A program made the translations under genes and the position numbers. The notes under the pieces are model-generated. The model did no database searches. It saw only the letters and a list, made by a program, of their open reading frames with translations, and was not told the DNA's origin. A stretch of DNA of 35,994 nucleotides from an uncultured Gammaproteobacteria bacterium (lineage in GTDB: Bacteria > Pseudomonadota > Gammaproteobacteria > Arenicellales > JAANXG01), in assembly GCA_947258495.1 (NCBI GenBank), contig CAMYIN010000136.1, positions 1-35,994 of the forward strand, read 5' to 3'. Within the stretch, counting starts at the first letter, position 1. Each line of letters begins with the position of its first letter. This document shows, in pieces, positions 2 to 17,376 of this stretch.

Positions 2-850
2 CTCGAGGTCAAGGCGACCGACGCTTCCGGACGCGTCTGGTTCAACAACGTGTACGAGAAGCGCGTCGACGCCCGGGCCTACGTCGACGCCAAAGACGCC
101 GAAGTGTTTCAGGATGTCTACAACCGCATTGCCAACAATCTGTACCGCCAAAAAGCGAAATTGACGGCGGACCAGATACTGGAAATCCGGCGCATCGCCG
201 AACTGCGTTTCGGGAAATCTCTGGTGCCGGTTGCGTTCGAAGACTTCGTCGCGTCAAGCGACGACGGCCGGTATCGCATCCACAGATTGCCGGCCGAGCA
301 AGACCCGATGGTCGATCGCGTGCTGAAGGTCCGTGAGCGGGAAAATATGTTGATCGACGTCGTCAACGGCTACTACGACGTATTCAACGCGGAAATGACG
401 GATCCGTACTTCAGTTGGCGCAAAGCCCTCAGTGACGAGGCCGCGGCCCTGCGCGAAGTAAAGAAAAGCGCCACCAATCGTTATCTACTGGGCGCGGCCA
501 TGATCGTGGGCGCCATCGCGATCGAGGCCCTCGGGGGCGATGCCAACACCGAGTCGGTGCGCGACGTGATGGTCCTGGGCGGCGCCTACAACGTGAAGCG
601 CGGCATGGACATGAGTCAGCAGAAGGGGATACACGAGGACGCGATACGCGAGCTCGGCGACTCGTTCAACGCCGAGGTGGCGCCGCTGGTGATCCACGTC
701 GAAGGGCAGACGGTGGAACTGACCGGTACGGCCGAACAACAATTCACCCAGTGGCGCGGTCTACTTGCCGAGATCTACGCCACCGAGACCGGTGCGACTA
801 TGCCCGTCATCGCGGACGATGACGGTCCGCAGTCACCGACGCTAAAATGA
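2..850 (+). CDS. Unknown protein with one membrane segment, 5'-truncated, first gene of the ExbB/vWA operon
   Basis: The frame is open from base 2 of the window, so the true start lies upstream and 282 residues are visible. I do not recognise the family. The visible part is mostly charged and helical, with a hydrophobic segment (YLLGAAMIVGAIAIEALGG) near the middle that could be a membrane helix or a buried hairpin. The tail is acidic and polar. It ends in TGA about 40 bases before the TPR gene on the same strand, so it is probably co-transcribed with the cluster that follows. The very start of the window reads as conserved-looking extracellular or periplasmic sequence (VKATDASGRVWFNNVYEKR), which suggests that the missing N-terminus carries a signal peptide, but this cannot be seen. 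Function unknown. Confidence 0.75.
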   Translation, partial: LEVKATDASGRVWFNNVYEKRVDARAYVDAKDAEVFQDVYNRIANNLYRQKAKLTADQILEIRRIAELRFGKSLVPVAFEDFVASSDDGRYRIHRLPAEQDPMVDRVLKVRERENMLIDVVNGYYDVFNAEMTDPYFSWRKALSDEAAALREVKKSATNRYLLGAAMIVGAIAIEALGGDANTESVRDVMVLGGAYNVKRGMDMSQQKGIHEDAIRELGDSFNAEVAPLVIHVEGQTVELTGTAEQQFTQWRGLLAEIYATETGATMPVIADDDGPQSPTLK

Positions 851-890: not shown

Positions 891-2321
891 GTGACCCGCG
901 CTCGACCCCGCTCTCCCCGCTGGGTCCGGATCACGCTGCTGGCGGTGCTTACGATCTTGTTGAGCGCCGTCGTCATCGTCGTCTGGGTGCTTCCAGACTT
1001 CGTCAGCCGTCGCGCCGCAATCGACGCGCTCGACCGGCGAACGACACCCGAGGCGGCCACACCCGCCGCTCCCAAATCGGAACTAGTACGTCAACACCGG
1101 GAAAAGCGCGAGGCCGAGCTTGCCTTGCAGGTGGTGTTGCAGCGCCAGAGTGTGCTCGAAGCGCAGCAGGTCCGCTCCTGGGCCGGCGGGGACTACGAAG
1201 AAGCGCTCGCGCGCCTGGCCGAGGGCGACGTCGCGTTCGCCGACAACGATTTCGCGACGGCGGTTTCGGCGTATCGCGATGTCGCAGCGCTGTTTGCGGC
1301 CCTGGAAGCGTCCAAGGCCGAGCGCCTGGTCGCGGCCCTGGAACGCGGCGCGCTTGCGTTGAAAGCTTACGGCGCCGATTCGGCGCGGAAACAATTCACC
1401 ATCGCGCTCGCGATCGACCCACGGCACGCAGAGGCACAACGCGGCCTGGAGAGGGCAGGCACGCTCGATCGCGTCGCCGAGCTCCTGGCGTCCGCGCGCA
1501 AGCACGAACAGGACGGCGAATGGGCGCTGGCTGAAAAACACTACACCCAGGCCCGGCAACTGGATCCGGAATCCGAGGAAGCGCAACAGGGCGAGGCGCG
1601 GGTTGCCGCGACGCGCAAGCGGCTGTTGTTCCGAGAAGCCATGTCTGCCGTGCTGACGGCGATGGAAGACGGGAAGCTGCCCGAGGCGCAGCACGCACTG
1701 GATCGGGCGCGCGCGTTGAACGTGGAACCGGCGGAGGTGGCGGACGTGCAACGGCGCTTGACACGTGCGGTCCAGGCGAAAAAAATCGGCCAACATCGAA
1801 CACGGGCTCAGCGGGCCGAGCACGAGGAAAGCTGGCGGGACGCGATCGCCGACTACGACGCGGCGTTGACCATCGACCCGCGGGCGCAGTTTGCGTTGCA
1901 GGGACGGCAACGCGCCGAACGCTACGCGGAACTGCACGCGCAGTTGGACACCTACCTCGGCGCGCCCGACCGCTTGCAGTCGTCCGAACCGCGCGCCAAC
2001 GCGTCTCGTCTGCTGCAGACTGCAGCGACGCTGTCGGAGAAAGGGCCGAAGCTGCTGGATAAACTCAATGCCCTCGAACGAATCGTCCGAACGGCCAGCA
2101 CCCCGGTGACGGTGGTGCTGCGCTCCGACAACCAGACCGAGATCTCCATCGACCGCGTCGGCCGCTTCGGCCGATTCACGGAATCGAAGATCGAATTACT
2201 GCCCGGCACCTACCGCGTACGCGGGTCGCGGTTCGGATTCCGCGACGTGCACCTGGAATGGACCGTGACCGCGGTACAGAAACTTCAGACCCTGGAAGTA
2301 CGTTGCAAAGAACGGATTTGA
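891..2321 (+). CDS. Membrane-anchored TPR protein with C-terminal PEGA-like domain
   Basis: A 476-residue protein from a GTG start. A basic N-terminus is followed by one membrane helix at about residues 13-36, which gives a type II anchor with the rest in the periplasm. Residues about 97-345 are Ala/Glu/Arg-rich helical pairs typical of degenerate tetratricopeptide repeats, including repeat-end signatures such as ALAIDPRHAEAQ, ARQLDPESEEAQ and ALTIDPRAQFAL. Residues about 404-470 form a beta-rich PEGA-like domain (LLPGTYRVRGSRFGFRDV). The TPR part suggests a protein-protein scaffold and the PEGA-like part suggests envelope anchoring. The stop overlaps the probable TTG start of the next gene. 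The pairing with PEGA, ExbB-like and vWA genes suggests it is part of one envelope complex. The specific partner is inference. Confidence 0.85.
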   Translation: MTRARPRSPRWVRITLLAVLTILLSAVVIVVWVLPDFVSRRAAIDALDRRTTPEAATPAAPKSELVRQHREKREAELALQVVLQRQSVLEAQQVRSWAGGDYEEALARLAEGDVAFADNDFATAVSAYRDVAALFAALEASKAERLVAALERGALALKAYGADSARKQFTIALAIDPRHAEAQRGLERAGTLDRVAELLASARKHEQDGEWALAEKHYTQARQLDPESEEAQQGEARVAATRKRLLFREAMSAVLTAMEDGKLPEAQHALDRARALNVEPAEVADVQRRLTRAVQAKKIGQHRTRAQRAEHEESWRDAIADYDAALTIDPRAQFALQGRQRAERYAELHAQLDTYLGAPDRLQSSEPRANASRLLQTAATLSEKGPKLLDKLNALERIVRTASTPVTVVLRSDNQTEISIDRVGRFGRFTESKIELLPGTYRVRGSRFGFRDVHLEWTVTAVQKLQTLEVRCKERI

Positions 2322-4663
2322 ACGCGTTGACGGTCACTACCCGCAACGCAACAGACCGGCGGTGCACCGAAGGCGAGCGGCTCAGTATCGGCGGCGAGGC
2401 TGCGGACATCCCGTTGTCGGGAGACCGTAGCAGGAACGAATACGCCTACATCGAGTACCGGGACGGGCATCCCTGGCTGGCGCCGGCCGGACCCGCCATT
2501 GAGCTGCGGCTGAACGAGCGCCGTATCACCGATCCAGCCCCCCTGCGGGACGGCGACCGTATCCAGCTGGGTGGAGTGACGCTGGTGTGCGCGCTGTCGG
2601 GACAATCTCTGCAGATTGGAGAAGACGCCCGTGAGACGCCGGACCTCGCAGCAGCCGCCGCAGTGACGGCGGCGAAACCCGGCGGCCGCCGCGCGCTGCG
2701 AATCGGTCTACTGCTGGTGTTCGCGGGTCTTCTGGTGGTCGCGGCCTTTGTCTTCACGGCCACGCCGGTGTCGATCGCCGTAACCCCCGAGCCGGACCAG
2801 CTGGAGCTGAGGGGCGCGCTCCCGACGTTGAAATTCCAGGGCCGTTTTCTGGCCTATCCGGGCAGCTACCGGATCCTCGCGAGCAAGGCCGGTTACCGCG
2901 CGCTGGAGCGCGAGGTCGAACTCCGACGCGGACCACATCGGCAGCTTGCGTTCGCCCTGGATAAGCTCCCCGGCCGCGTTACCCTGCTGAGCCGGCCCAT
3001 TGCGGGCGCGAGCGTGGAGGTGGACGGCCGGCAGATCGGGGTGACGCCGATCCGCGATCTGGAGCTGGCCGCCGGCGCGCATCGGATTCGATTCGCGGCA
3101 CCCCGCTACCAACCGGCGCAACTCGATGCCAAGGTCGAGGGCATGGGCCGTTCCCAACAGTTCGAGATCGCGCTGCAGCCCGATTGGGCGCCGGTGTCGT
3201 TCGCGTCGACGCCGAGCGGCGCGTCCCTGTGGATCGACGGCGAGGCAATGGGTACGACGCCGGTTACCCTGGATCTGCGTTCCGGCGAACGCAGCGTCGA
3301 ACTGCGGCTGGACAAGCACGACACGCATCGCGCACAGCTCACCGTGGTTGCGGGCCAAGCGATGACCCCCGCGCCGTACCTACTCAGTCCGTCCGACGGC
3401 GTGCTCGCCGTCAGCAGCGAGCCGGATGGCGCCTCGGTAACGGTGGACGATCGGTATCACGGCGTGACGCCGCTCGAAATAAGCCTCGCCCCGGAACAGG
3501 AACACCGCGTCGTCCTCAGCAAGGCCGGTCACCGGCCGGTCAGCAGGTCGGTGCGCGTGGAAGCGGCGGCGACGGAATCGCTGCAGGTTGCGCTGGCGGC
3601 GGAGTTCGGCACGATTTTCGTGGTCAGCGATCCACCCGATGCGCGGCTGTTCGTAGACGGCAAGGAGCAAGGCGCGGGCAGTCAGCGTTTGCGTATGACC
3701 ACCGAGACCCACCAATTGGAATTCAAGAAGCCGGGTTACAAATCCTACCGCGTGAGCGTTACGCCGCGCGCCGGGGTGAGCAAAGAAGTGACGGCGACGC
3801 TCGAACGCGTTACGCCGGAAGCGGGCGGCGCCGCGAACAACAAGAGTGTCACTACCGGCGAAGGGCAGGTGTTGCGATTGATCACGCCGGGCCGCTTCAC
3901 CATGGGCGCGTCGCGCCGCGAACAGGGAAGGCGCGCCAACGAGCAGCTGCGTGAGATAGCGCTGACACGGCCGTTTTATCTCGGGACCAAAGAAGTCACC
4001 AATCAGCAATTCCGCCGCTTCAAGACCGATCACAGCTCGGGTTCCGCCTACGGCCGAAGTCTCGACGGCAACGAGCAACCGGTGGTGAACGTTCGCTGGG
4101 ACGAAGCGGCCGCTTATCTCAACTGGTTGAGCGCGCAGGACGGCTTGACCCCGGCGTACGTGAAACAGGGGGAAACCATGATCGCGGTACGGCCGCCGAC
4201 CAACGGTTACCGCCTGCCCACCGAAGCCGAATGGGAATATGCGGCGCGCTACGCGAAGCGCCCGAGTCCGGTCAAGTACGCCTGGGGAAAAGGCTATCCG
4301 CCAACCGGTTCGGCCGGCAACTACGCGGACCGCGCGGCGTCCGGCCTGCTCCCCAATACGCTCTCGACCTACGACGACCGATTCGCGGTCACCGCCCCGG
4401 TCGGCAGCTTCGCACCGAATCCGCTCGGAATCTTCGACGTCGGCGGAAACGTGGCAGAATGGTGCCACGACTACTACGACGTGCAGGTCGCAGCCGCAGG
4501 AGTTACCCAAGACCCCATCGGTCCCGAATCGGGACGCCACCACGTGGTGCGCGACGCCGGTTGGCAACACTCGACCATCAGCGAATTGAGACTGAGTTTT
4601 CGAGACTACAGCGACAAGGCGAGGCAGGACCTGGGGTTCCGGATCGCGCGTTATGCCGACTAG
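2318..4663 (+). CDS. FHA-like / TM / PEGA-repeat / formylglycine-enzyme-like (SUMF1 family) protein
   Basis: I chose TTG at 2318, which overlaps the previous stop (TTGA). An in-frame ATG at 2258 would add 20 unlikely residues, and the residue numbers here count from that ATG. Residues about 34-115 look like an FHA domain (RLSIGGEAADIPL, then LRDGDRIQLG). A membrane helix follows at about 147-168. Residues about 170-515 hold several PEGA domains (for example GASVEVDGRQIGVTP, GASLWIDGEAMGTTP, GASVTVDDRYHGVTP). Residues about 535-800 are an FGE-sulfatase/SUMF1 fold (FTMGAS, RLPTEAEWEYAAR, GNVAEW, DLGFRIAR). The conserved active-site cysteine pair of formylglycine-generating enzymes is not present near the usual RGGSW site, which here reads RDAGW, so a structural or binding role is more likely than sulfatase maturation. 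Predicted topology is FHA in the cytoplasm and PEGA/FGE in the periplasm. Confidence 0.88.
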   Translation: MNALTVTTRNATDRRCTEGERLSIGGEAADIPLSGDRSRNEYAYIEYRDGHPWLAPAGPAIELRLNERRITDPAPLRDGDRIQLGGVTLVCALSGQSLQIGEDARETPDLAAAAAVTAAKPGGRRALRIGLLLVFAGLLVVAAFVFTATPVSIAVTPEPDQLELRGALPTLKFQGRFLAYPGSYRILASKAGYRALEREVELRRGPHRQLAFALDKLPGRVTLLSRPIAGASVEVDGRQIGVTPIRDLELAAGAHRIRFAAPRYQPAQLDAKVEGMGRSQQFEIALQPDWAPVSFASTPSGASLWIDGEAMGTTPVTLDLRSGERSVELRLDKHDTHRAQLTVVAGQAMTPAPYLLSPSDGVLAVSSEPDGASVTVDDRYHGVTPLEISLAPEQEHRVVLSKAGHRPVSRSVRVEAAATESLQVALAAEFGTIFVVSDPPDARLFVDGKEQGAGSQRLRMTTETHQLEFKKPGYKSYRVSVTPRAGVSKEVTATLERVTPEAGGAANNKSVTTGEGQVLRLITPGRFTMGASRREQGRRANEQLREIALTRPFYLGTKEVTNQQFRRFKTDHSSGSAYGRSLDGNEQPVVNVRWDEAAAYLNWLSAQDGLTPAYVKQGETMIAVRPPTNGYRLPTEAEWEYAARYAKRPSPVKYAWGKGYPPTGSAGNYADRAASGLLPNTLSTYDDRFAVTAPVGSFAPNPLGIFDVGGNVAEWCHDYYDVQVAAAGVTQDPIGPESGRHHVVRDAGWQHSTISELRLSFRDYSDKARQDLGFRIARYAD

Positions 4664-4874
4664 GATCGCAGTGTTGGCGTTGCTGCTTGCGACGACGGCT
4701 TCGGCTCAGTCGCCGCCCGGCGCTCCGGAGCCCGGCGCCGTCGAACCGCAGACCGAAGACACAACCCAAGCGTCACCGCCGTCGCCGCAACAGGGGCGCA
4801 AGTTTCCCGAACCGTTCGTACCGACGGACAAGATCTCCCCGGACAGCGTGATCTCCTTTCCTTCCGATATTTGA
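4653..4874 (+). CDS. Small exported proline-rich protein
   Basis: A 73-residue protein whose ATG overlaps the end of the FGE-like gene by 11 bases. It begins with a clear signal peptide (MPTRIAVLALLLATTASAQ). The mature part is short, Pro/Gln/Glu-rich and probably disordered, and ends PTDKISPDSVISFPSDI. It has no cysteine or lipobox. It stops 13 bases before the ExbB-like gene, whose ribosome-binding site (GAGCGAGGACC) lies in that gap. The position between the FGE-like and the channel gene suggests a periplasmic linker or plug for the complex, but I do not recognise the family. Confidence 0.75.
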   Translation: MPTRIAVLALLLATTASAQSPPGAPEPGAVEPQTEDTTQASPPSPQQGRKFPEPFVPTDKISPDSVISFPSDI

Positions 4875-4887
4875 GCGAGGACCAACG

Positions 4888-5697
4888 ATGACTCCGAACG
4901 TTTTGAAAAAGACGATCCCGGTCGAATTCGTCTACCAGGTTTTTTCACTGCTGCTCGCCGTTATCATCGTCCATGCACTCTATGTGGCCATGATCCGGCC
5001 CAATGCCGAGGCCTTCATCAAGGCCGAGGCCGAGCAGATGCAGGCCGACCCCGAGTACGTGCAGCAGCGGTCGCTGTACGTCGTCATACGCGACTACGAG
5101 CAGGAGGCCTGCTTCATCCTAATGCTGTGGGCGTTTGCGATCATGGGTTACAAGGGGACATTGATCTATCGCGAACGGCGCCTGCTTGAGACCGACGTCG
5201 TCGGCGATGCAGGCAATGCAACGTTCACATCCGAGGAAACCCAGACCCTGACGCGACGCATTCAATCGCTGCCTGCGCGCGCGCAGCGGCTGTTGCTGCC
5301 ACGCGCCTTGACCGCCGCACTGCATCGATTTGCCGCCGCGGACAACGTGCAAAGCGTGTCTGCGGCCTCGCGCGAGGTCTGTGAGTCCGAAGCAGAGCGC
5401 CTCGAATCGGAACTGTCGATCATCCGTTACATCGCCTGGGCCATACCCTCGATCGGCTTCATCGGCACCGTGCGGGGAATCAGCGACGCGCTTGCGCAGG
5501 CGCACCGCGCGGTGGAAGGCGACATCACGGGCGTTACGCAGAGCCTCGGCGTCGCCTTCAACTCGACCTTCATCGCCCTGGTGATCAGCATCGTCGTCAT
5601 GTTCTTCGTGCATCAACTGCAGCTGGCGCAGGAGCGCGTGGTCCTCGAAACCGAAGACTATTGCGATCAGCGGCTGATCCGCCGCCTGCGTCGATAG
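4888..5697 (+). CDS. MotA/TolQ/ExbB-type proton-channel subunit
   Basis: A 269-residue inner-membrane protein. Membrane helices are predicted at about 14-36, 74-92, 181-202 and 222-246. The third helix region carries the family signature RYIAWAIPSIGFIGTVRGI, equivalent to the LLGLLGTVxG motif of ExbB/TolQ/MotA. The last helix (SLGVAFNSTFIALVISIVVMFF) carries the small polar residues expected in the ion path. This family forms a pentamer around two MotB/ExbD/TolR helices and couples ion flow to rotation or force. Two proteins with suitable Asp-bearing helices are encoded immediately downstream, and no classical exbD, tolR or motB is present here. The long cytoplasmic segment between helices 2 and 3 is normal for the family. 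It ends in TAG, 21 bases before the next gene. Confidence 0.9.
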   Translation: MTPNVLKKTIPVEFVYQVFSLLLAVIIVHALYVAMIRPNAEAFIKAEAEQMQADPEYVQQRSLYVVIRDYEQEACFILMLWAFAIMGYKGTLIYRERRLLETDVVGDAGNATFTSEETQTLTRRIQSLPARAQRLLLPRALTAALHRFAAADNVQSVSAASREVCESEAERLESELSIIRYIAWAIPSIGFIGTVRGISDALAQAHRAVEGDITGVTQSLGVAFNSTFIALVISIVVMFFVHQLQLAQERVVLETEDYCDQRLIRRLRR

Positions 5698-5718
5698 CAA
5701 TCCTGCCGCCGGCATCCC

Positions 5719-6831
5719 GTGGCCGCCCTCCGTTCACGCCGCAAACGCCGAGGCATCAGCGTCTTCGGGCTCTCGTTCCTGGACGTCATGTTCTGCGGTT
5801 TCGGCTCGGTCATCCTGCTGGTGATGATCGTCAACGCCGACACGCTGACCCGCCGCAAGCAGGTGCACCAGGACCTGCGCGGGCAGGTCTCGCGGCTGCA
5901 GACGGAGGTCCGGACGGGCGAACGCTATCTGGCGGAACTGCGCAACGCCCTCGACGAGGTCGACCGCCAGCGCGTTGCCACCGAAGGACGCTCCCGCGAG
6001 GTCGTGGACCGCATGCAGCGGCTGCAGCCCGAAATCGCGACGCTCAACCGGGAGACGCGGTCACAGCGTGAACACGCGAACCGGCTCAAATCGGACTTGC
6101 GCAGACTCGAGCAGGAGCAACAGAAACTCGCCGCCGAACGCGAACGCGAAAAACAACGCGGCACCCAGGTCCGGCGTTTCGTCGGCGAAGGGGACCGTCA
6201 ATACCTGACCGGACTGAAGATGGGCGGCAAACGTGTGCTGATCCTGGTGGACGCTTCCGCGAGCATGCTGGAAGAAACCATCGTCAACATCGTCCGCCTG
6301 CGCAATCTTGCCGATGCCGTGAAACGCGACGCGCCGAAGTGGCAGCGCGCGGTGCGCACCGTGGAGTGGCTGCTCGCCCAGCTGCCGGTCGACAGCCGCT
6401 ATCAGATCTACGCCTTCAACACCAAGGCCTGGCCGCTGCTTGCGGGCACAGACGGCATCTGGCTGGACAGCGGCGACAGCGCGACGCTCGACCGGGCCGT
6501 CGGTGCTTTGCGCGTCCTGGTGCCCGACGGCGGCACCAGTCTGTACCACGCGTTCGAGGTGGCCGCGACGCTGTCGCCGCGTACGGACAACGTGTTCCTC
6601 GTCAGCGACGGCCTGCCCACCCAGGGCAAATCCCGGTCGACGCGAGCGCGCGTGTCCGGCGATCAGCGGCGCAAGCTTTTCCGCCGCGCCCTGGAGCGCC
6701 TGCCCGCCAACGTGCCGGTCAACAGCGTTCTGTTCCCCATCGAAGGCGATCCGTTTGCCGCCAGCGAGTTCTGGAGGCTGGCGTTGTCGAGCGGCGGTTC
6801 GTTCATGACGCCGTCGCGGGACTGGCCGTGA
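5719..6831 (+). CDS. ExbD/MotB-like helix fused to coiled coil and vWA domain (subunit 1)
   Basis: A 370-residue protein from GTG 5719. A basic N-terminus is followed by one membrane helix at about 17-38, beginning SFLDVMFCGFG. Asp22 sits where ExbD/TolR (FLDVxLVLL) and MotB (YADLM) carry their essential proton-binding Asp. Residues about 45-150 are a strongly charged coiled coil. Residues about 171-360 are a von Willebrand factor A domain with an intact MIDAS: DASAS at 178-182, a Thr in DGGTSLYHAF, and the SDG of FLVSDGLPTQG. This predicts a metal-binding vWA domain held outside the membrane on a long stalk. The stop overlaps the start of the second vWA gene (GTGA), a sign of coupled translation. 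Exported-side placement of the vWA domain is inferred from MotB/ExbD topology. Confidence 0.88.
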   Translation: MAALRSRRKRRGISVFGLSFLDVMFCGFGSVILLVMIVNADTLTRRKQVHQDLRGQVSRLQTEVRTGERYLAELRNALDEVDRQRVATEGRSREVVDRMQRLQPEIATLNRETRSQREHANRLKSDLRRLEQEQQKLAAEREREKQRGTQVRRFVGEGDRQYLTGLKMGGKRVLILVDASASMLEETIVNIVRLRNLADAVKRDAPKWQRAVRTVEWLLAQLPVDSRYQIYAFNTKAWPLLAGTDGIWLDSGDSATLDRAVGALRVLVPDGGTSLYHAFEVAATLSPRTDNVFLVSDGLPTQGKSRSTRARVSGDQRRKLFRRALERLPANVPVNSVLFPIEGDPFAASEFWRLALSSGGSFMTPSRDWP

Positions 6832-7835
6832 GACGCCGTCGGCGCGCCGTGGAGGCGTTCAGCATCTCCTTTCTCGACGTCATCTGCTGCGCGTTCGGCG
6901 CCATCATCCTCGTCCTGGTGCTGTCGAAGACCGCCGAGCCCCGTGTGCTGGAGGCGATCCGCGCCGACCTCAACGAGGTCGTCGCCGAACTCACCCGGCA
7001 GATCTTCGAAATACGCGGCGACACCCAGGTCTTGAACCGCGAACTCAACAGCGAACGCGAACAGGTCTCCGACATCAAGCAGCAGCTTGCCCGGCTCATT
7101 GGAGACCTGGCGCGCGTCCGCGCACAGTTCGCGGCCTCCCAGCGCGACCTGGAAACGCAGCGCGCCATTACCGGGCGGCTGGACTCGGCGAAGCAGGAAC
7201 TCAGCGCCGAGATGCGCCGTCTGCTCGGCGAGGATTTCCGCCGAGCGCCCGCGGACACCACGGTGGGCGGCATCCCGGTGGACAGCGAGTACATCATCTT
7301 CATCATCGACACGTCGGGAAGCATGTTCAACTACGCCTGGAGCCTGATGCTGAAGAAGGTGGAGGAGACGCTGAGTGTCTATCCACGAGTCAAGGGGATC
7401 CAGGTGATGAACGACATGGGCGAGTACATGTTCTCGCAATACGCGGGAAAATGGATCGTCGACACCCCGGCGCGGCGTAAAGCCATCCGCCGCCGGCTCG
7501 CGACCTGGAATCCGTTCAGCAACAGCAGTCCGGTCGAAGGCATCACCCGCGCCATCCGCACCTATTACGCGCCGGACAAGAAGATCAGCCTCTACGTCTT
7601 CGGCGACGAGTTCTCAACCGGCTCCATGGAAGAGGTGGTCCGCACCGTCGACCGCATCAATCGCGCGGACGCGCAGGGCAACCGGCTGGTGCGCATCCAC
7701 GGGGTGGGCTTTCCGGTGCAGTTGACCCGCCCGGACGGCCTCGACGCCACCGGCGTCCGCTTCGCCGCGCTCATGCGCATGCTCAGCGAGCGCAACGGCG
7801 GGACCTTCGTAGGTTTGAACCGCGTCAGTCCGTAG
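6828..7835 (+). CDS. ExbD/MotB-like helix fused to coiled coil and vWA domain (subunit 2)
   Basis: I chose GTG 6828, which overlaps the previous stop by four bases. The frame is open much further upstream, but that part is only a shadow of subunit 1. The protein has 335 residues: RRRRR, then a membrane helix at about 13-32 beginning SFLDVICCAFGA with Asp17 in the ExbD/MotB position, a coiled coil at about 38-135, and a vWA domain from about 153. The MIDAS motif DTSGS is perfect at 161-165, while the later acidic site reads VFGDEF rather than the usual TDG. It has the same architecture as subunit 1 but a clearly different sequence, so the pair is either an old duplication or a heterodimer. It is the last gene of the operon and ends in TAG. 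Confidence 0.88.
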   Translation: MRRRRRAVEAFSISFLDVICCAFGAIILVLVLSKTAEPRVLEAIRADLNEVVAELTRQIFEIRGDTQVLNRELNSEREQVSDIKQQLARLIGDLARVRAQFAASQRDLETQRAITGRLDSAKQELSAEMRRLLGEDFRRAPADTTVGGIPVDSEYIIFIIDTSGSMFNYAWSLMLKKVEETLSVYPRVKGIQVMNDMGEYMFSQYAGKWIVDTPARRKAIRRRLATWNPFSNSSPVEGITRAIRTYYAPDKKISLYVFGDEFSTGSMEEVVRTVDRINRADAQGNRLVRIHGVGFPVQLTRPDGLDATGVRFAALMRMLSERNGGTFVGLNRVSP

Positions 7836-7884: not shown

Positions 7885-8616
7885 TTATCGATCGGTCTTT
7901 TGCTCGATCACACTCGCGTCGTCGAAGCCGGGGTTGTTCACCCTGGTCGAGACCGCATACGCCTCCATGAGTTCCGCGGGAAAGGGCCTCACCAGGGCCA
8001 GTGCCTGCTCCGGCTCGCCTCGCAGCCAGACGTCGTACTTCTCGGGCGGCACCAGCACCGGCATGCGGTTGTGGATGGACCGCATGAGCGCGTTCGGACC
8101 GCAGGTGACGATGGCCGCGGACAATACCGCTTCCTCCTCGTTCAGATACGACACCTCCCAGAGCCCGGCCACGCCGAGCAATCCGCGGTCCGCGCCCTGG
8201 ATGTGGTAGGGCTGCTTTCCGCGTTGACCCGGGACCTTTTTCCATTCATAGAAACCGGACATCACAAACAGACAGCGCTGCCGGTGCTTCCAGGCGTGCC
8301 GGTAGGTCGCTTTTTCCGCCATGGACTCGCCGCGGGCGTTCGCCGTGGAATATTTCGGTACTTTGCCTTTCGCCCATACCGGGATCAGCGGCCAGACGGC
8401 ATCGACGATTTCCCGCTCCCCCTCTTTGTTGACGCGCACTATGGGTACGCGTGTCAACCGCGCTGATGCGCCGTCAGCCCCTTCCTTGGCGGGCGCCGAT
8501 GGGGCGATGTTATAGCGCGGCTTGGCATACGTTTTCGCTTTGAGATTCGCGTCAAGAATATCGAACGCGTCCATCAACGCCTGCGCATCGGTGACGATGT
8601 TGTACCGACCGCACAC
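7885..8616 (-). CDS. SRAP-domain protein (SOS-response-associated, YedK/HMCES family)
   Basis: A 243-residue protein from a GTG start that gives the mature-form motif M-CGRYNI. Cys2 is the residue that crosslinks to abasic sites in single-stranded DNA and shields them from cleavage. Other family hallmarks are RYNIAPS, the FYEWKK segment with its Glu, and MRSIHNRMPVLVPP with the catalytic-site His. Length is normal for the family. No ribosome-binding site is obvious. I see no LexA box close to the start. It stands alone, converging with the vWA operon and following the gamma-glutamyltransferase gene on the same strand after a gap. Confidence 0.95.
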   Translation of the reverse strand: MCGRYNIVTDAQALMDAFDILDANLKAKTYAKPRYNIAPSAPAKEGADGASARLTRVPIVRVNKEGEREIVDAVWPLIPVWAKGKVPKYSTANARGESMAEKATYRHAWKHRQRCLFVMSGFYEWKKVPGQRGKQPYHIQGADRGLLGVAGLWEVSYLNEEEAVLSAAIVTCGPNALMRSIHNRMPVLVPPEKYDVWLRGEPEQALALVRPFPAELMEAYAVSTRVNNPGFDDASVIEQKTDR

Positions 8617-13094: not shown

Positions 13095-13381
13095 TGTGCC
13101 GCAGGCCCACGCCCCAGATTCACGCCCGGGTCGCGCGTTGATCGGAACGTCGTCGGCAAACGTCTTGCGCACCTCATAATCGTTCAACAGACGTAGCCGT
13201 CGATACAGCGACGCGCAACGGCATGCGGAGACGCACGGTCGAGATTTACCATTGCAGCCAAGCAACCTCAATGCGCCACAGCGTTCCTGTTCCCGCCCGC
13301 CTGGCCCGGATAATTCCTATGCCTGACAGCGGCCCCCTTCACGCAAGACCGATACGCGACAGGCCGGCGGTTTCGACAACA

Positions 13382-14668
13382 ATGGCACTGCGTGAACGCG
13401 TGCTGATCATTGCGCCGCACAGCAGCTACCGGTCCTCCGCGTTTCTCGATGCTGCAAAAAAACTCGGCGTCGAGGTGCTGTTTGCTTCCGAAGGCAGGCA
13501 CTCGGTGGTCAGTATGTACAGCAACGGACTGCACATCGATATCGAAGACAGCGACGGCGCCATAGAGACGATCTTGCGCGAGGCTTCGCGGTTTCCGTTC
13601 CGCGCTGTCGTCGGCACCGACGATTCCACTATCGAGCTGGCGGCGCGGGTCGCACGGTCTCTCGGCCTGCGCCACAATCCGGCGCCGGCGGTGCGCATCG
13701 CCCGCTTTAAGGACGAGGCACGAACGCGACTTGCGCAGACGCGTATCCCCGTGCCGCGGTTTCGCCTTATCGATTTGCGGCGTCCGCTGGCCCCGCAAGC
13801 CGAACAGGTCCGTTTTCCCTGTGTGCTGAAACCGCTAAGCCTCTCCGCCAGCCGCGGCGTAATCCGCGCCGACAATCCGGATCAATTTCTAAGCGCTTGT
13901 GCGCGTATACACCGGCTGTTGCAGGCCGAAGCGGCGGAGCAACGCGACCACATCCTGGCGGAGGACTTCATTCCCGGTGTCGAGGTCGCGGTCGAGGCGA
14001 TGTTGACCGAAGGCGAGCTCGAGGTTCTCGCGATTTTTGATAAGCCCGACCCGCTGGACGGACCGTATTTCGAAGAGACTTATTATGTAACCCCTTCGCG
14101 ACTGGACCCGGCGCTGCAACGGCAGATTAGGGACCGGGTCAACGACGCCTGCGACGCCTACGGCCTGCGCGAGGGCCCTGTGCACGCGGAATGCCGGCTG
14201 AACCACCAAGGCGTTTGGATCCTCGAAGTCGCGCCCCGCACCATAGGCGGCCAGTGTGCGCGGCTCCTTCAATACGCAACGGGTCAAAGCCTGGAGGAAC
14301 TCGTGCTTTCCCACGCCATGGGGCGTCAAAGGCGACACCGCCGAAGCCGCCGTGATGCTGCGGGGGTGCTCATGATACCCATTCCCGCCGCCGGCATTCT
14401 GCGCCGGGTGGAAGGGGTGCTGGCCGCGGAGCGGGTACCCTATGTGGAAGAAGTTTCCATATCGGTGCGCGAAGGCTATCAGCTGGTGCCGTGGCCGGAA
14501 GGATCGACCTATCTCGGGTTCATCTTCTCCCGAGCGCCAACGCCCGGCCAGGCCGAGGCCGCGCTGCGCGAGGCGCACGCCCGATTGCGGTTCGTGGTTG
14601 CGCCTCTGTGGAATATCGACACCCGATCCATTGACAGCTCGACGGCGTCGGTCCGGCAATATTCCTGA
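13382..14668 (+). CDS. ATP-grasp ligase-like protein, paired with a radical SAM protein
   Basis: I used ATG 13382 because the Rossmann-like start RVLIIAPHSSYR follows at once; in-frame ATGs at 13271 and 13319 remain possible and none has a good ribosome site. From 13382 it has 428 residues. The ATP-grasp features are FPCVLKPLSLSASRGV (ATP-binding Lys150 and glycine-poor loop), AEDFIPGVEVAVEA, and HAECRLNHQGVWILEVAPR with the Mg-binding acidic and Arg residues near 270-286. The family joins a carboxylate, through an acyl phosphate, to an amine or thiol. The 3' end overlaps the next start by one base (TGATG), so the two products are made together. Substrate unknown. Confidence 0.88.
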   Translation: MALRERVLIIAPHSSYRSSAFLDAAKKLGVEVLFASEGRHSVVSMYSNGLHIDIEDSDGAIETILREASRFPFRAVVGTDDSTIELAARVARSLGLRHNPAPAVRIARFKDEARTRLAQTRIPVPRFRLIDLRRPLAPQAEQVRFPCVLKPLSLSASRGVIRADNPDQFLSACARIHRLLQAEAAEQRDHILAEDFIPGVEVAVEAMLTEGELEVLAIFDKPDPLDGPYFEETYYVTPSRLDPALQRQIRDRVNDACDAYGLREGPVHAECRLNHQGVWILEVAPRTIGGQCARLLQYATGQSLEELVLSHAMGRQRRHRRSRRDAAGVLMIPIPAAGILRRVEGVLAAERVPYVEEVSISVREGYQLVPWPEGSTYLGFIFSRAPTPGQAEAALREAHARLRFVVAPLWNIDTRSIDSSTASVRQYS

Positions 14669-16056
14669 TGCGCGCGGTCTTGATCAATCCTTACGAAATC
14701 GGCCGGCAGCCGTTTGGATTGGCGGAACCCGCCGCGCTGCTGCAACAAGCCGGTTGCACGGTCGACTGCCTGGATCTGTCTCTGCAGAGACTCGACCCGG
14801 CATTGCTCGCGCAAGCCGATCTCGTAGGCGTCTACGTTGCCATGCACACGGCAACCCGCATCGCGGTGGAAGCAATACCCCGCATTCGCCGTCACGCGCC
14901 GCGCGCTCATCTCTGTGCTTACGGTCTGTATGCGCCCATGAACGAAGCACGGCTAAGCGTTCTCGGGGTCGACACGGTGCTCGACGGCGAGTTCGAGTCG
15001 CGAATGCTCGCTCTGGTTGAGGGGCTCGCATCCGGCAACGGCGCCGCCTATGCCACCGCTTCGAGCAAACTCCCCGAAGTCCCTTTCGTGGTGCCCGATC
15101 GGTCCAAACTGCCGCCGCTGTCGCAGTACGCCCGCCTGGTCACTTCCGACGGGGTCGAAAAGACCGTCGGTTTCGCCGAGACCTCCAGAGGTTGCAAACA
15201 TTTTTGCCGGCATTGTCCTGTCGTCCCGATCTACGAAGGCAGATTCCGCATCGTGCCGCGCGATGTGGTTGCCGCCGATGTCCGCAATCAAGTCCTGGCG
15301 GGCGCCGAGCACATTTCGTTCGGCGACCCCGATTTCCTCAACGGCCCGGGACACGCACGCAGGGTCGTGTGCGCGTTGCACGCGGAGTTTCCGGACGTCA
15401 CCTATGACGCCACCGTAAAGATCGAACATATCCTGCGATACCGGGAACTGCTTCCGGAACTGAAGGATACGGGCTGCCTGTTCATCACCTCGGCGGTGGA
15501 GTCCGTCGACGACCGCGTGCTGGCGCATCTCAACAAGGGCCACACGAAAGACGATTTCGTCACCGCGGTCCGCCTACTGCGGAATACGGGCATCAGCCTG
15601 ACGCCGACGTTTGTCGCCTTCACGCCGTGGACGTCCCTGGACGGCTATCTCGATCTGTTGCGGACCATCGCCGAACTGGGGCTCGTCGATAGCGTCCCTC
15701 CGATTCAGTTAGCCATTCGCTTGCTGGTGCCGCGAGGCTCCCACCTCTTGAAATTGGAAGGATTCGAAAAACGATTACGCGACTTCGATTCGAATACGCT
15801 GGGCTACCCCTGGGGCCACGCCGACCATCGGGTAGATGCGCTCCAAGAAGCCGTGCAGGCCTGCGCGGCCCGGGCCGAACAAAACGGGCTTTCGCGCGCC
15901 GAGACGTTCGCGGAGATCTGGCGTCTCGCGCACCGCGCCGCAGACCGACCCGTGCCCGTTTTGCCGCCCCGTTCCTCGGCAGAGCTCGTACCACATTTGT
16001 CGGAACCCTGGTACTGCTGTGCCGAACCGACGAATCAACAACTGGCGTCCTTCTGA
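14668..16056 (+). CDS. Radical SAM protein with C-terminal CCAEP tail
   Basis: A 462-residue protein. Residues 1-120 form a Rossmann-like domain as in B12-binding radical SAM proteins, but I see no DxHxxG cobalamin motif. The cluster motif is C176-KHF-C180-RH-C183 (CxxxCxxC), followed by GAEHISFGDPDFLNGP as the SAM-binding strand region. The last residues read WYCCAEP at about 448-454, then a short tail. This matches the radical SAM group that I recall as named for its CUAEP/CCAEP tail, in which some members have selenocysteine at the second Cys position. The second codon of the pair here is TGT, so this is the all-cysteine form. It is translationally coupled to the ATP-grasp gene, suggesting a two-enzyme modification or biosynthetic step. 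Confidence 0.9.
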   Translation: MRAVLINPYEIGRQPFGLAEPAALLQQAGCTVDCLDLSLQRLDPALLAQADLVGVYVAMHTATRIAVEAIPRIRRHAPRAHLCAYGLYAPMNEARLSVLGVDTVLDGEFESRMLALVEGLASGNGAAYATASSKLPEVPFVVPDRSKLPPLSQYARLVTSDGVEKTVGFAETSRGCKHFCRHCPVVPIYEGRFRIVPRDVVAADVRNQVLAGAEHISFGDPDFLNGPGHARRVVCALHAEFPDVTYDATVKIEHILRYRELLPELKDTGCLFITSAVESVDDRVLAHLNKGHTKDDFVTAVRLLRNTGISLTPTFVAFTPWTSLDGYLDLLRTIAELGLVDSVPPIQLAIRLLVPRGSHLLKLEGFEKRLRDFDSNTLGYPWGHADHRVDALQEAVQACAARAEQNGLSRAETFAEIWRLAHRAADRPVPVLPPRSSAELVPHLSEPWYCCAEPTNQQLASF

Positions 16057-16152: not shown

Positions 16153-17376
16153 GTGCATCGAGGCACAGCGGTGACGGCGACCGGCACGGAAGTTTTTTAC
16201 GAGCGGCTTCCAGCATTTTCCGAATTCGTGGCGTTTCCCGATACCGGTTTCTACCGATCGCTCCCGGACGATTGGGACGTCGTCATCACGGACGTAAAAA
16301 ATTCGACGCGGGCGATTGAGAGAGGAGAATACAAACAGGTCAACGCCATCGGTGTCGCGTCCATCGTCGCTATGGCGAACGCGGCAAAACCGTTCCAGGT
16401 TCCGTATGTTTTCGGTGGCGACGGGGCCGCGGCCTGCGTCCCGACAGCGACAAAAGAATCGGTGCTGTCGGCGCTCGCGGCTGCAAGAACCTTAGCGGCC
16501 GAATGTTTCAGACTCGAGTTACGTATCGGGTCAGTCCCGTTGAAGCAAATACGCAACGCCGGCCGCGAAGTATTGATAGCAAAGTATCGGCCCCATCCCG
16601 ACTACCAGCAGGCGGTATTCATGGGTGACGGCCTTTCCTATGCAGAAATGTTGGTCAAGGACACGAGGCCGAACAATCCGTTTCTGGTCGCCGAGGAAGA
16701 AAAAGGCAAAGAGTATATATTCACAGGATTTGAATGCCGATGGAATGAAATCCCCAGTCCTCACGAAGAGACCATCACGCTGATGGTACGGGTCTTGGAG
16801 AACGATCTATCGGAAAGAAACCGCATGTATCGGGCATTGTTGAAGCATATAGATCGAATCTACGGCACCGAGAGGCGCTACCATCCATTGCGGGCAGACA
16901 ACATGACGCTGACCCGATCCCCTGCGCTGCTATCCGTGGAGGCCGGAGTCAGAACCGCGTTTCGACCCAAACCGTTTCGGATGATCTATATGTGGAAGCT
17001 CCAGGCATTGCGCATCGTCGGCGCCTGGTTCATGAAACGGGGCGTGAAAACCGAATCCGCAGATTGGGGGCAGTATAAACGCAACCTGATACGCAACACG
17101 GACTACCGAAAATTCGATGAGACCCTGCGCATGGTGATCTCGGGCACCGAGGCACAACGTGCGCAATTACGTGAAGTTCTGAAAGGATATCGACACAGGC
17201 AACAATTGGTGTTCGGCATATACGCGGCGCCCTCTTCACTCATAACCTGCATGATTACCGACTACGACAAGGACCATGTCCATTTCCTCGATGCGTCCAA
17301 CGGCGGCTACGCGATGGCGGCGCGGGAATTGAAGCGGCAGTTGGCGGAATTGAAGCGTCCCCAGAGCCCAATATGA
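16153..17376 (+). CDS. DUF3095 family protein (adenylate-cyclase-like fold)
   Basis: A 407-residue protein from GTG 16153 (GTG 16168 is also possible). The start SLPDDWDVVITDVKNSTRAI and then YVFGGDGAAACVP are the family hallmarks, and resemble the two metal-binding strands of class III nucleotide cyclases (D-x-x-x-ST, then GGDG). Near the C-terminus it reads LITCMITDYDKDHVHFLDAS. The full catalytic set of cyclases is not confirmed by eye. No signal peptide is seen; MIYMWKLQALRIVGAWFM near the middle could touch the membrane. The stop overlaps the next gene (ATGA), so the pair is an operon. Function of the family is not established. Confidence 0.88.
   Translation: MHRGTAVTATGTEVFYERLPAFSEFVAFPDTGFYRSLPDDWDVVITDVKNSTRAIERGEYKQVNAIGVASIVAMANAAKPFQVPYVFGGDGAAACVPTATKESVLSALAAARTLAAECFRLELRIGSVPLKQIRNAGREVLIAKYRPHPDYQQAVFMGDGLSYAEMLVKDTRPNNPFLVAEEEKGKEYIFTGFECRWNEIPSPHEETITLMVRVLENDLSERNRMYRALLKHIDRIYGTERRYHPLRADNMTLTRSPALLSVEAGVRTAFRPKPFRMIYMWKLQALRIVGAWFMKRGVKTESADWGQYKRNLIRNTDYRKFDETLRMVISGTEAQRAQLREVLKGYRHRQQLVFGIYAAPSSLITCMITDYDKDHVHFLDASNGGYAMAARELKRQLAELKRPQSPI

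Follow-up and report, generated by a model that had tools for sequence, protein, structure and literature searches.

Which proteins fill the pore of an ExbB/TolQ/MotA-family channel when the genes that follow it encode not ExbD, TolR or MotB, but two proteins with vWA domains? The question is raised by positions 4,888 to 7,835 of a 35,994-nucleotide stretch of DNA, referred to in its entirety as the window, which is contig C136 (CAMYIN010000136.1) of the assembly GCA_947258495.1 from an uncultured gammaproteobacterium (217 contigs, completeness 74%). Here a channel protein, E, is encoded directly upstream of two proteins, F and G, each of which has an N-terminal helix, a long coiled coil and a vWA or vWA-like domain. 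Our analysis makes it likely that E, F and G form an ion-driven motor, with the helices of F and G replacing ExbD/TolR/MotB in a pentamer of E, and that the operon around them encodes one trans-envelope machine. The gene layout, its conservation, the sequence motifs and the content of the operon are direct observations. The seven genes, all on the plus strand, make up the left end of the window:

Gene A, 2..850, + strand: cut by the contig start; probable lipoprotein, no family match
Gene B, 891..2321, + strand: N-terminal transmembrane (TM) helix, TPR repeats, conserved C-terminal region
Gene C, 2258..4663, + strand: FHA domain, TM helix, four PEGA domains, FGE-sulfatase-type domain
Gene D, 4653..4874, + strand: 73 amino acids (aa), probable secreted protein; C-terminal peptide FP-x-DI
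Gene E, 4888..5697, + strand: 269 aa, ExbB/TolQ/MotA-family channel protein; pore Thr194 (5467-5469) and Thr227 (5566-5568)
Gene F, 5719..6831, + strand: 370 aa, GTG start; vWA protein 1; helix 5776-5832, Asp22 (5782-5784), DxSxS 6250-6264
Gene G, 6828..7835, + strand: 335 aa, GTG start; vWA-like protein 2; helix 6864-6920, Asp17 (6876-6878), DxSxS 7308-7322

With its GTG start at 6828, G overlaps the stop codon of F by 4 bases. The start at 6339 given for G in the list of open reading frames (ORFs) was dropped, as it lies inside F and is a mechanical product of ORF calling.

Conservation of E, F and G

E passes the cut-off of the Pfam family MotA_ExbB (E-value 4.7e-16) and, searched alone against the PDB, matches TolQ at E-values of 0.017 and 0.018. 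Its relatives and those of the other operon proteins come from 80 loci fetched out of 521 found, which were selected by patterns lying in the vWA part of G and not in its helix. All 65 E sequences of at least 240 aa have both Thr194 and Thr227, and these pore positions align with Thr in each of four MotA_ExbB paralogues of the same genome (four of the five paralogues were aligned). The genome has four matches to ExbD (PF02472), on contigs C203, C106 and C14 (two), each with another ExbB gene; contig C136 itself has no match to ExbD/TolR (PF02472). Two more MotA_ExbB genes of the genome, on contigs C187 and C172, have no ExbD match on those contigs.

F carries a single hydrophobic helix at residues 20–38, followed by a coiled coil and a domain that matches Pfam VWA_2 (E-value 1.5e-8), and in G a helix at residues 13–31 is followed by a coiled coil and a divergent vWA domain. 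The coils have median lengths of 106 residues in F (n=65) and 96 in G (n=60), corresponding to about 16 and 14 nm if fully helical, and their heptad periodicity exceeds that of shuffled sequences in all F and 97% of G. The domains of F and G are co-linear over 174 columns in an hhalign comparison (E-value 5.7e-4, with a probability of only 30%), and local alignments of the two proteins reach about 23–29% identity. The helix is the most conserved segment: the mean majority fractions of helix, vWA part and coil are 0.78, 0.65 and 0.50 in F, and 0.83, 0.77 and 0.59 in G. The helices of F and G are on average 58% identical to each other (75 pairs). A net positive charge on the N-terminal side of the helices (65 F, 60 G) is consistent with an N-in topology. 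Two weak planctomycete relatives also have an E-like protein followed by a protein that matches F/G, in one case over the helix (L180; 31 residues, 52%) and in the other over the helix and coil (L181; 30%) and faintly beyond.

Asp22 in the helix of F is invariant, together with D178/S180/S182, T273 and D297, across all 77 sequences with a length of 340 aa or more, and the same is true of Asp17, D161/S163/S165 and D260 of G in 81 of 81 (the window is included in both sets). The metal-ion-dependent adhesion site (MIDAS) of vWA domains is built from DxSxS, T and D. Because the motif residues are kept in all F and all G, F is likely to bind a metal in the MIDAS manner, and for G such binding is plausible. 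A profile of vWA2 (G) found no match in the PDB at an E-value of 0.01; up to an E-value of 1 it gave 36 matches, mostly to coil positions, among them two weak ones to integrin alpha-M (0.73 and 0.90). The C terminus of F (window positions 6820-6831) is also conserved: all 77 sequences end in Trp-Pro, 75 of them in Asp-Trp-Pro.

F and G are paired in all 80 fetched loci, and of the 61 loci that have at least 2.5 kb of room at F, 60 have E no more than 2 kb upstream, so that the layout is not due to chance. An earlier sequence-only reading of this DNA had described an ExbB-type gene followed by two helix/coiled-coil/vWA proteins, a layout that we confirm with a weaker vWA call for G, and had offered as a possible refutation that the genes might not be conserved together. 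They are kept together across phyla by the counts just given, and this refutation fails. The conservation extends to the rest of the operon: among the 52 relatives with 9.4 kb or more between the start of the locus and G, 48 have an A-family gene and 49 have B. The order Z-A-B-C-E-F-G, in which Z is an additional upstream gene, is retained in three divergent relatives (L183–L185), and the fuller set, Z-A-B-C-(D)-E-(X)-F-G, is found in near-constant order across phyla. For A, B, C, E, F and G, the distances over 49 loci have correlations of 0.84–0.95, with no outside gene as control, as expected of a unit that is inherited together; shared ancestry alone could also give such correlations.

F and G as candidate pore subunits

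The central proposal of the sequence-only reading was that the vWA proteins are the D/B-subunits of the channel. The invariant Asp in the helices of F and G, the invariant pore Thr of E, the conservation of the helix above all other segments and the lack of an ExbD match on the contig all argue for this assignment. The profile comparison gave no link to ExbD. Against the ExbD profile, hhalign scores the F helix at 11.9 and the G helix at 10.0, inside the background given by 178 unrelated N-terminal helices (median 9.55, 95th percentile 14.3, maximum 18.2); single sequences score a median of 12.5 for F (best 21.6) and 11.1 for G (best 14.7). Common descent with ExbD is thus not established, and the resemblance, as far as these sequences indicate, is one of position and of the invariant Asp.

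These scores weigh against F and G as pore subunits, and so do the divergence of G and the arrangement of three relatives. VWA_2 matches the G protein of the window at an E-value of 0.17 only, and among 50 G proteins scanned (of 81), VWA_2 is found in 10 and VWA in 8 at E-values of 0.01 or better. Locus L056, in a chromosome-scale metagenome-assembled genome (MAG), has F and G with no E, C, B or A in about 9 kb upstream, and is a copy that has been either rearranged or degraded. The order is not absolute: C, B and A sit downstream on the opposite strand in L044, and E sits downstream of G in G091.

A core of this type has been described by others. In the parts of PMC12204202 (Mol Biol Evol 2025) on which we draw, TolQ-like genes occur with heterologous pairs of vWA proteins that have a transpore helix with a conserved Asp, and no tolR/exbD is present; AF3 models put the Asp inside the pentamer, rotation in the pentamer is proposed, and the paired-vWA systems are placed mainly in Proteobacteria and Verrucomicrobia. 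The statement in the sequence-only reading that no system with this layout had been described is therefore not borne out, and its central inference, although independent, is not new. Measured against the description of these TPH-vWA/TolQ systems, the window likewise has a TolQ-like gene that directly adjoins the genes of two different TM-vWA proteins, a cluster without tolR/exbD, and a helix Asp (77 of 77 F, 81 of 81 G) with no SHLS/His docking motif; it differs in its further operon members, Z-A-B-C-(D)-E-(X)-F-G. The loci listed here include no Idiomarina record, and the likeness to the systems of that paper, for which Idiomarina loihiensis served as query, is one of layout and motifs by description. 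For the paired-vWA family, section 8 of the paper names no TPR, PEGA, FHA, FGE or small secreted partner; the TPR gene that it does mention belongs with the other vWA family.

That other family, the first of PMC12204202, consists of TonB/TolA-like vWA transducers with an SHLS/His motif and tolR-like genes, as described in the same parts of the paper. It is a precedent for an arrangement in which F and G would dock at the side of the channel, while an ExbD or TolR protein from elsewhere in the genome fills the pore of E. The four ExbD matches of the genome could supply such a protein, and the profile comparison, which draws no link between the F/G helices and ExbD, would suit it as well. Yet all four matches lie on contigs with other ExbB genes, and the window has neither the SHLS/His motif nor tolR-like genes. 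The helices of 65 F and 60 G contain no His, and therefore no docking residue of the TonB/TolA type, and have the invariant Asp instead. Docking of the TonB/TolA type was rejected on the missing His, and we regard the side-docking arrangement as a whole as quite improbable.

Insertion of the F and G helices into the pore would place E-F-G beside the 5:2 motors ExbBD, TolQR and MotAB, with which it shares a MotA_ExbB-family channel protein with two pore Thr and partner helices with one Asp. It differs from them in that the periplasmic parts are a coiled coil and a vWA domain, rather than the ExbD/TolR fold or an OmpA-like domain, and in that there are two different partners, whose helix profiles have no detectable homology to ExbD.

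We infer a pentamer, pore insertion, an ion drive, a head ligand and gating in the following form. E would be a pentameric ion channel in the inner membrane, with one F and one G inserting their N-terminal helices into its pore in place of ExbD/TolR/MotB and the Asp of each helix set against the Thr ring of E. Ion flow would turn or tilt the hetero-dimeric F/G axle, and the motion would travel along two coiled coils, each about 15 nm long, to a pair of vWA heads located at the peptidoglycan or the outer membrane. There, the MIDAS metal sites may grip a partner, for which the C-terminal peptide of D, the lipoprotein A and the FGE/PEGA protein C are guessed candidates. Through B, C and, in relatives, X, there would be TPR, PEGA, kinase, FHA and Hsp70-like parts on either side of the inner membrane, and these proteins probably serve to gate the motor or as its scaffold. 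The mechanism appears well supported by conservation but is unproved; the direction of force and the head ligand are guesses, and so is the choice of purpose among gliding, adhesion, secretion and envelope upkeep.

The surrounding operon

The operon supplies the motor with named candidate partners, A, B, C, D, X and Z. Full-length relatives of A are mostly 388–439 aa long, and a simple regular expression finds a lipobox-like pattern in 37 of 52 A sequences. None of the 20 members scanned (of 52) has a Pfam match better than an E-value of 0.03, and the single PDB match of A at an E-value of 0.01 contains no significant stretch and gives no lead. B has a hydrophobic stretch at residues 16–44 and matches TPR_2 (E-value 1.2e-8). 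An N-terminal Pkinase domain (Pfam) is present in 6 of 14 B proteins scanned (of 56), a hand-picked set with many long proteins, so that the count is not a frequency; a simple and narrow regular expression finds a kinase signature in 1 of 53. One B member has an Fe-ADH match, perhaps owing to a wrong ORF boundary.

C combines PEGA (E-value 1.7e-47, four stretches) and FGE-sulfatase (1.5e-43) domains with a TM helix at residues 149–167 and an FHA domain that is barely over the cut-off (4.1e-4). PEGA and FGE are found together in all 14 C proteins scanned (of 61), and FHA is found in 2. C also matches NCBIfam GldK/PorK (E-value 5.4e-32) at 111.6 bits, far under the cut-off of 350, presumably because both contain an FGE-type domain. 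X, present in relatives, is an Hsp70-like protein, in some cases with FHA.

These kinase, FHA and Hsp70-like parts would also suit a sensor or scaffold without ion drive, in which the vWA heads sense the state of the envelope, E merely anchors them and the output passes to the kinase/FHA parts. The pore Thr of E and the helix Asp are unchanged in every sequence examined, across several phyla, which a simple anchor would not require; we therefore consider such a sensor unlikely and favour the motor.

D is probably secreted, its N-terminal sequence having been judged by eye. Its C-terminal pattern is found in 55 of the 59 loci with both C and E, and is specific in its position: 61 ORFs with a D-type pattern lie directly before E (window included), against 3 elsewhere among 9,924 ORFs.

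Further genes accompany the operon in relatives. Downstream of G, two further probable lipoproteins without a Pfam match occur in many loci (clusters of 28 and 25 loci; for example, L034 4597-5259 and L035 4120-4833), as does an M48 peptidase (cluster of 30 loci; for example, L034 5955-7442). Upstream of Z, some relatives encode a TPR protein (cluster of 22 loci; L177 5567-7018); the L177 protein, the one scanned, has a weak TonB_C domain below the cut-off (E-value 8.7e-4), and L186 13474-14751 and L187 14151-14975 resemble it by eye. A protein of this TPR/TonB_C type upstream of Z would fit a link to the outer membrane.

Spread and comparison with known machines

The best named match to G is in an uncultured gammaproteobacterial MAG (L030, 87% identity), in a search from which the window's own genome was possibly left out. 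Within the class of the window, F has matches at E-values of 0.001 or better in 10 of 143 genomes, its own included, 7 of them strong; the E-type gene lies directly before F in five of these seven; in one of the other two a single gene (X) intervenes, and in the last the E-type gene follows G. Within the phylum, G has matches at the same threshold in 35 of 398 genomes, of which 16 are below 1e-80 and the rest match mostly on coil positions. Named holders of the operon include Halieaceae, Desulfobacterales, a Myxococcales MAG, Acidobacteriota, Kiritimatiellia and Phycisphaerales, and isolated marine bacteria are among them (Pseudohalioglobus, Parahaliea and Seongchinamella records). Around the planctomycete holder, 18 of 99 genomes have a match to G at this threshold, strong in the holder only and weak in the 17 others; around the Desulfobacterales and acidobacterial holders, the sole match, among 79 and 80 genomes, respectively, is the holder itself. 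The spread is wide but patchy outside Pseudomonadota, which, together with the correlated distances of the six operon proteins, suggests that the operon may have been transferred as a block.

The phage-defence system Zorya also has a channel protein of this type, and E has weak matches to ZorA2 of PADLOC (E-value 1.4e-4) and ZorA of NCBIfam (0.028), which would be compatible with a Zorya-like anti-phage motor. The seven operon proteins include no match to ZorB, ZorC or ZorD, and the relatives show a long, conserved set of envelope proteins, not a variable defence setting. With ZorA-type matches this weak and no other Zorya part, membership in Zorya was rejected, and a defence motor of this kind seems to us extremely improbable.

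Closer parallels to an envelope motor are found among gliding machines. GldKLMN serves type IX secretion and gliding, and its GldL and GldM belong to different families. It resembles the operon, as read here, in having an FGE-type protein beside an ion-driven motor, and differs in that C is membrane-anchored with PEGA and FHA domains. Agl-Glt of Myxococcus xanthus, as given in the table passages of PMC3169522, comprises the TolQ-like AglR, two different TolR-like subunits, GltG with an FHA-TM-periplasmic arrangement, TPR proteins and the small secreted GltF of 89 aa; the operon has a comparable inventory of parts. The partner subunits AglQ and AglS are Pfam ExbD proteins and not vWA proteins, whereas the window's contig has no PF02472 match; the Agl-Glt genes are spread over several clusters, and those passages contain no PEGA or FGE protein.

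By analogy, we read the operon as encoding a trans-envelope machine that may be comparable to Agl-Glt or GldKLMN. Its core is of a kind already predicted in 2025 (PMC12204202, in the parts cited above, the only paper in which the searches found the core described), and no description of the whole operon was found in the literature searched (closed-access papers and preprints were outside its scope). The new element is the surrounding operon, especially that D, with its C-terminal peptide, accompanies a motor whose grips would be metal-dependent. A more far-reaching picture, which we put forward tentatively and consider possible rather than probable, is that E-F-G is the engine of a trans-envelope machine, hitherto undescribed and horizontally mobile, whose core consists of the seven genes Z, A, B, C, E, F and G, with D and X in addition. 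In it, the two vWA grips of a hetero-dimeric axle would pull outer-membrane partners through their MIDAS sites, the C-terminal carboxylate of D would act as ligand or clutch, and kinase, FHA and Hsp70-like parts would exert control from the cytoplasm, making this a third machine of the gliding/secretion type beside Agl-Glt and GldKLMN. If the motor is real, ExbB-type motors can move metal-dependent gripping domains across the periplasm, beyond OmpA- or TolR-like domains. Asp22, Asp17, Thr194, Thr227, the MIDAS residues and the C-terminal DI of D are testable residues, and a published structural prediction becomes directly testable in isolated marine bacteria.

In the window, G is followed by an SRAP gene on the minus strand (7885-8616). 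Further downstream, positions 13223-16056 encode an ATP-grasp protein with an L-amino acid ligase C-terminal domain and, directly after it, a B12-binding radical SAM protein; a DUF3095 protein follows at 16153-17376, and the ensemble resembles a small biosynthetic cluster.

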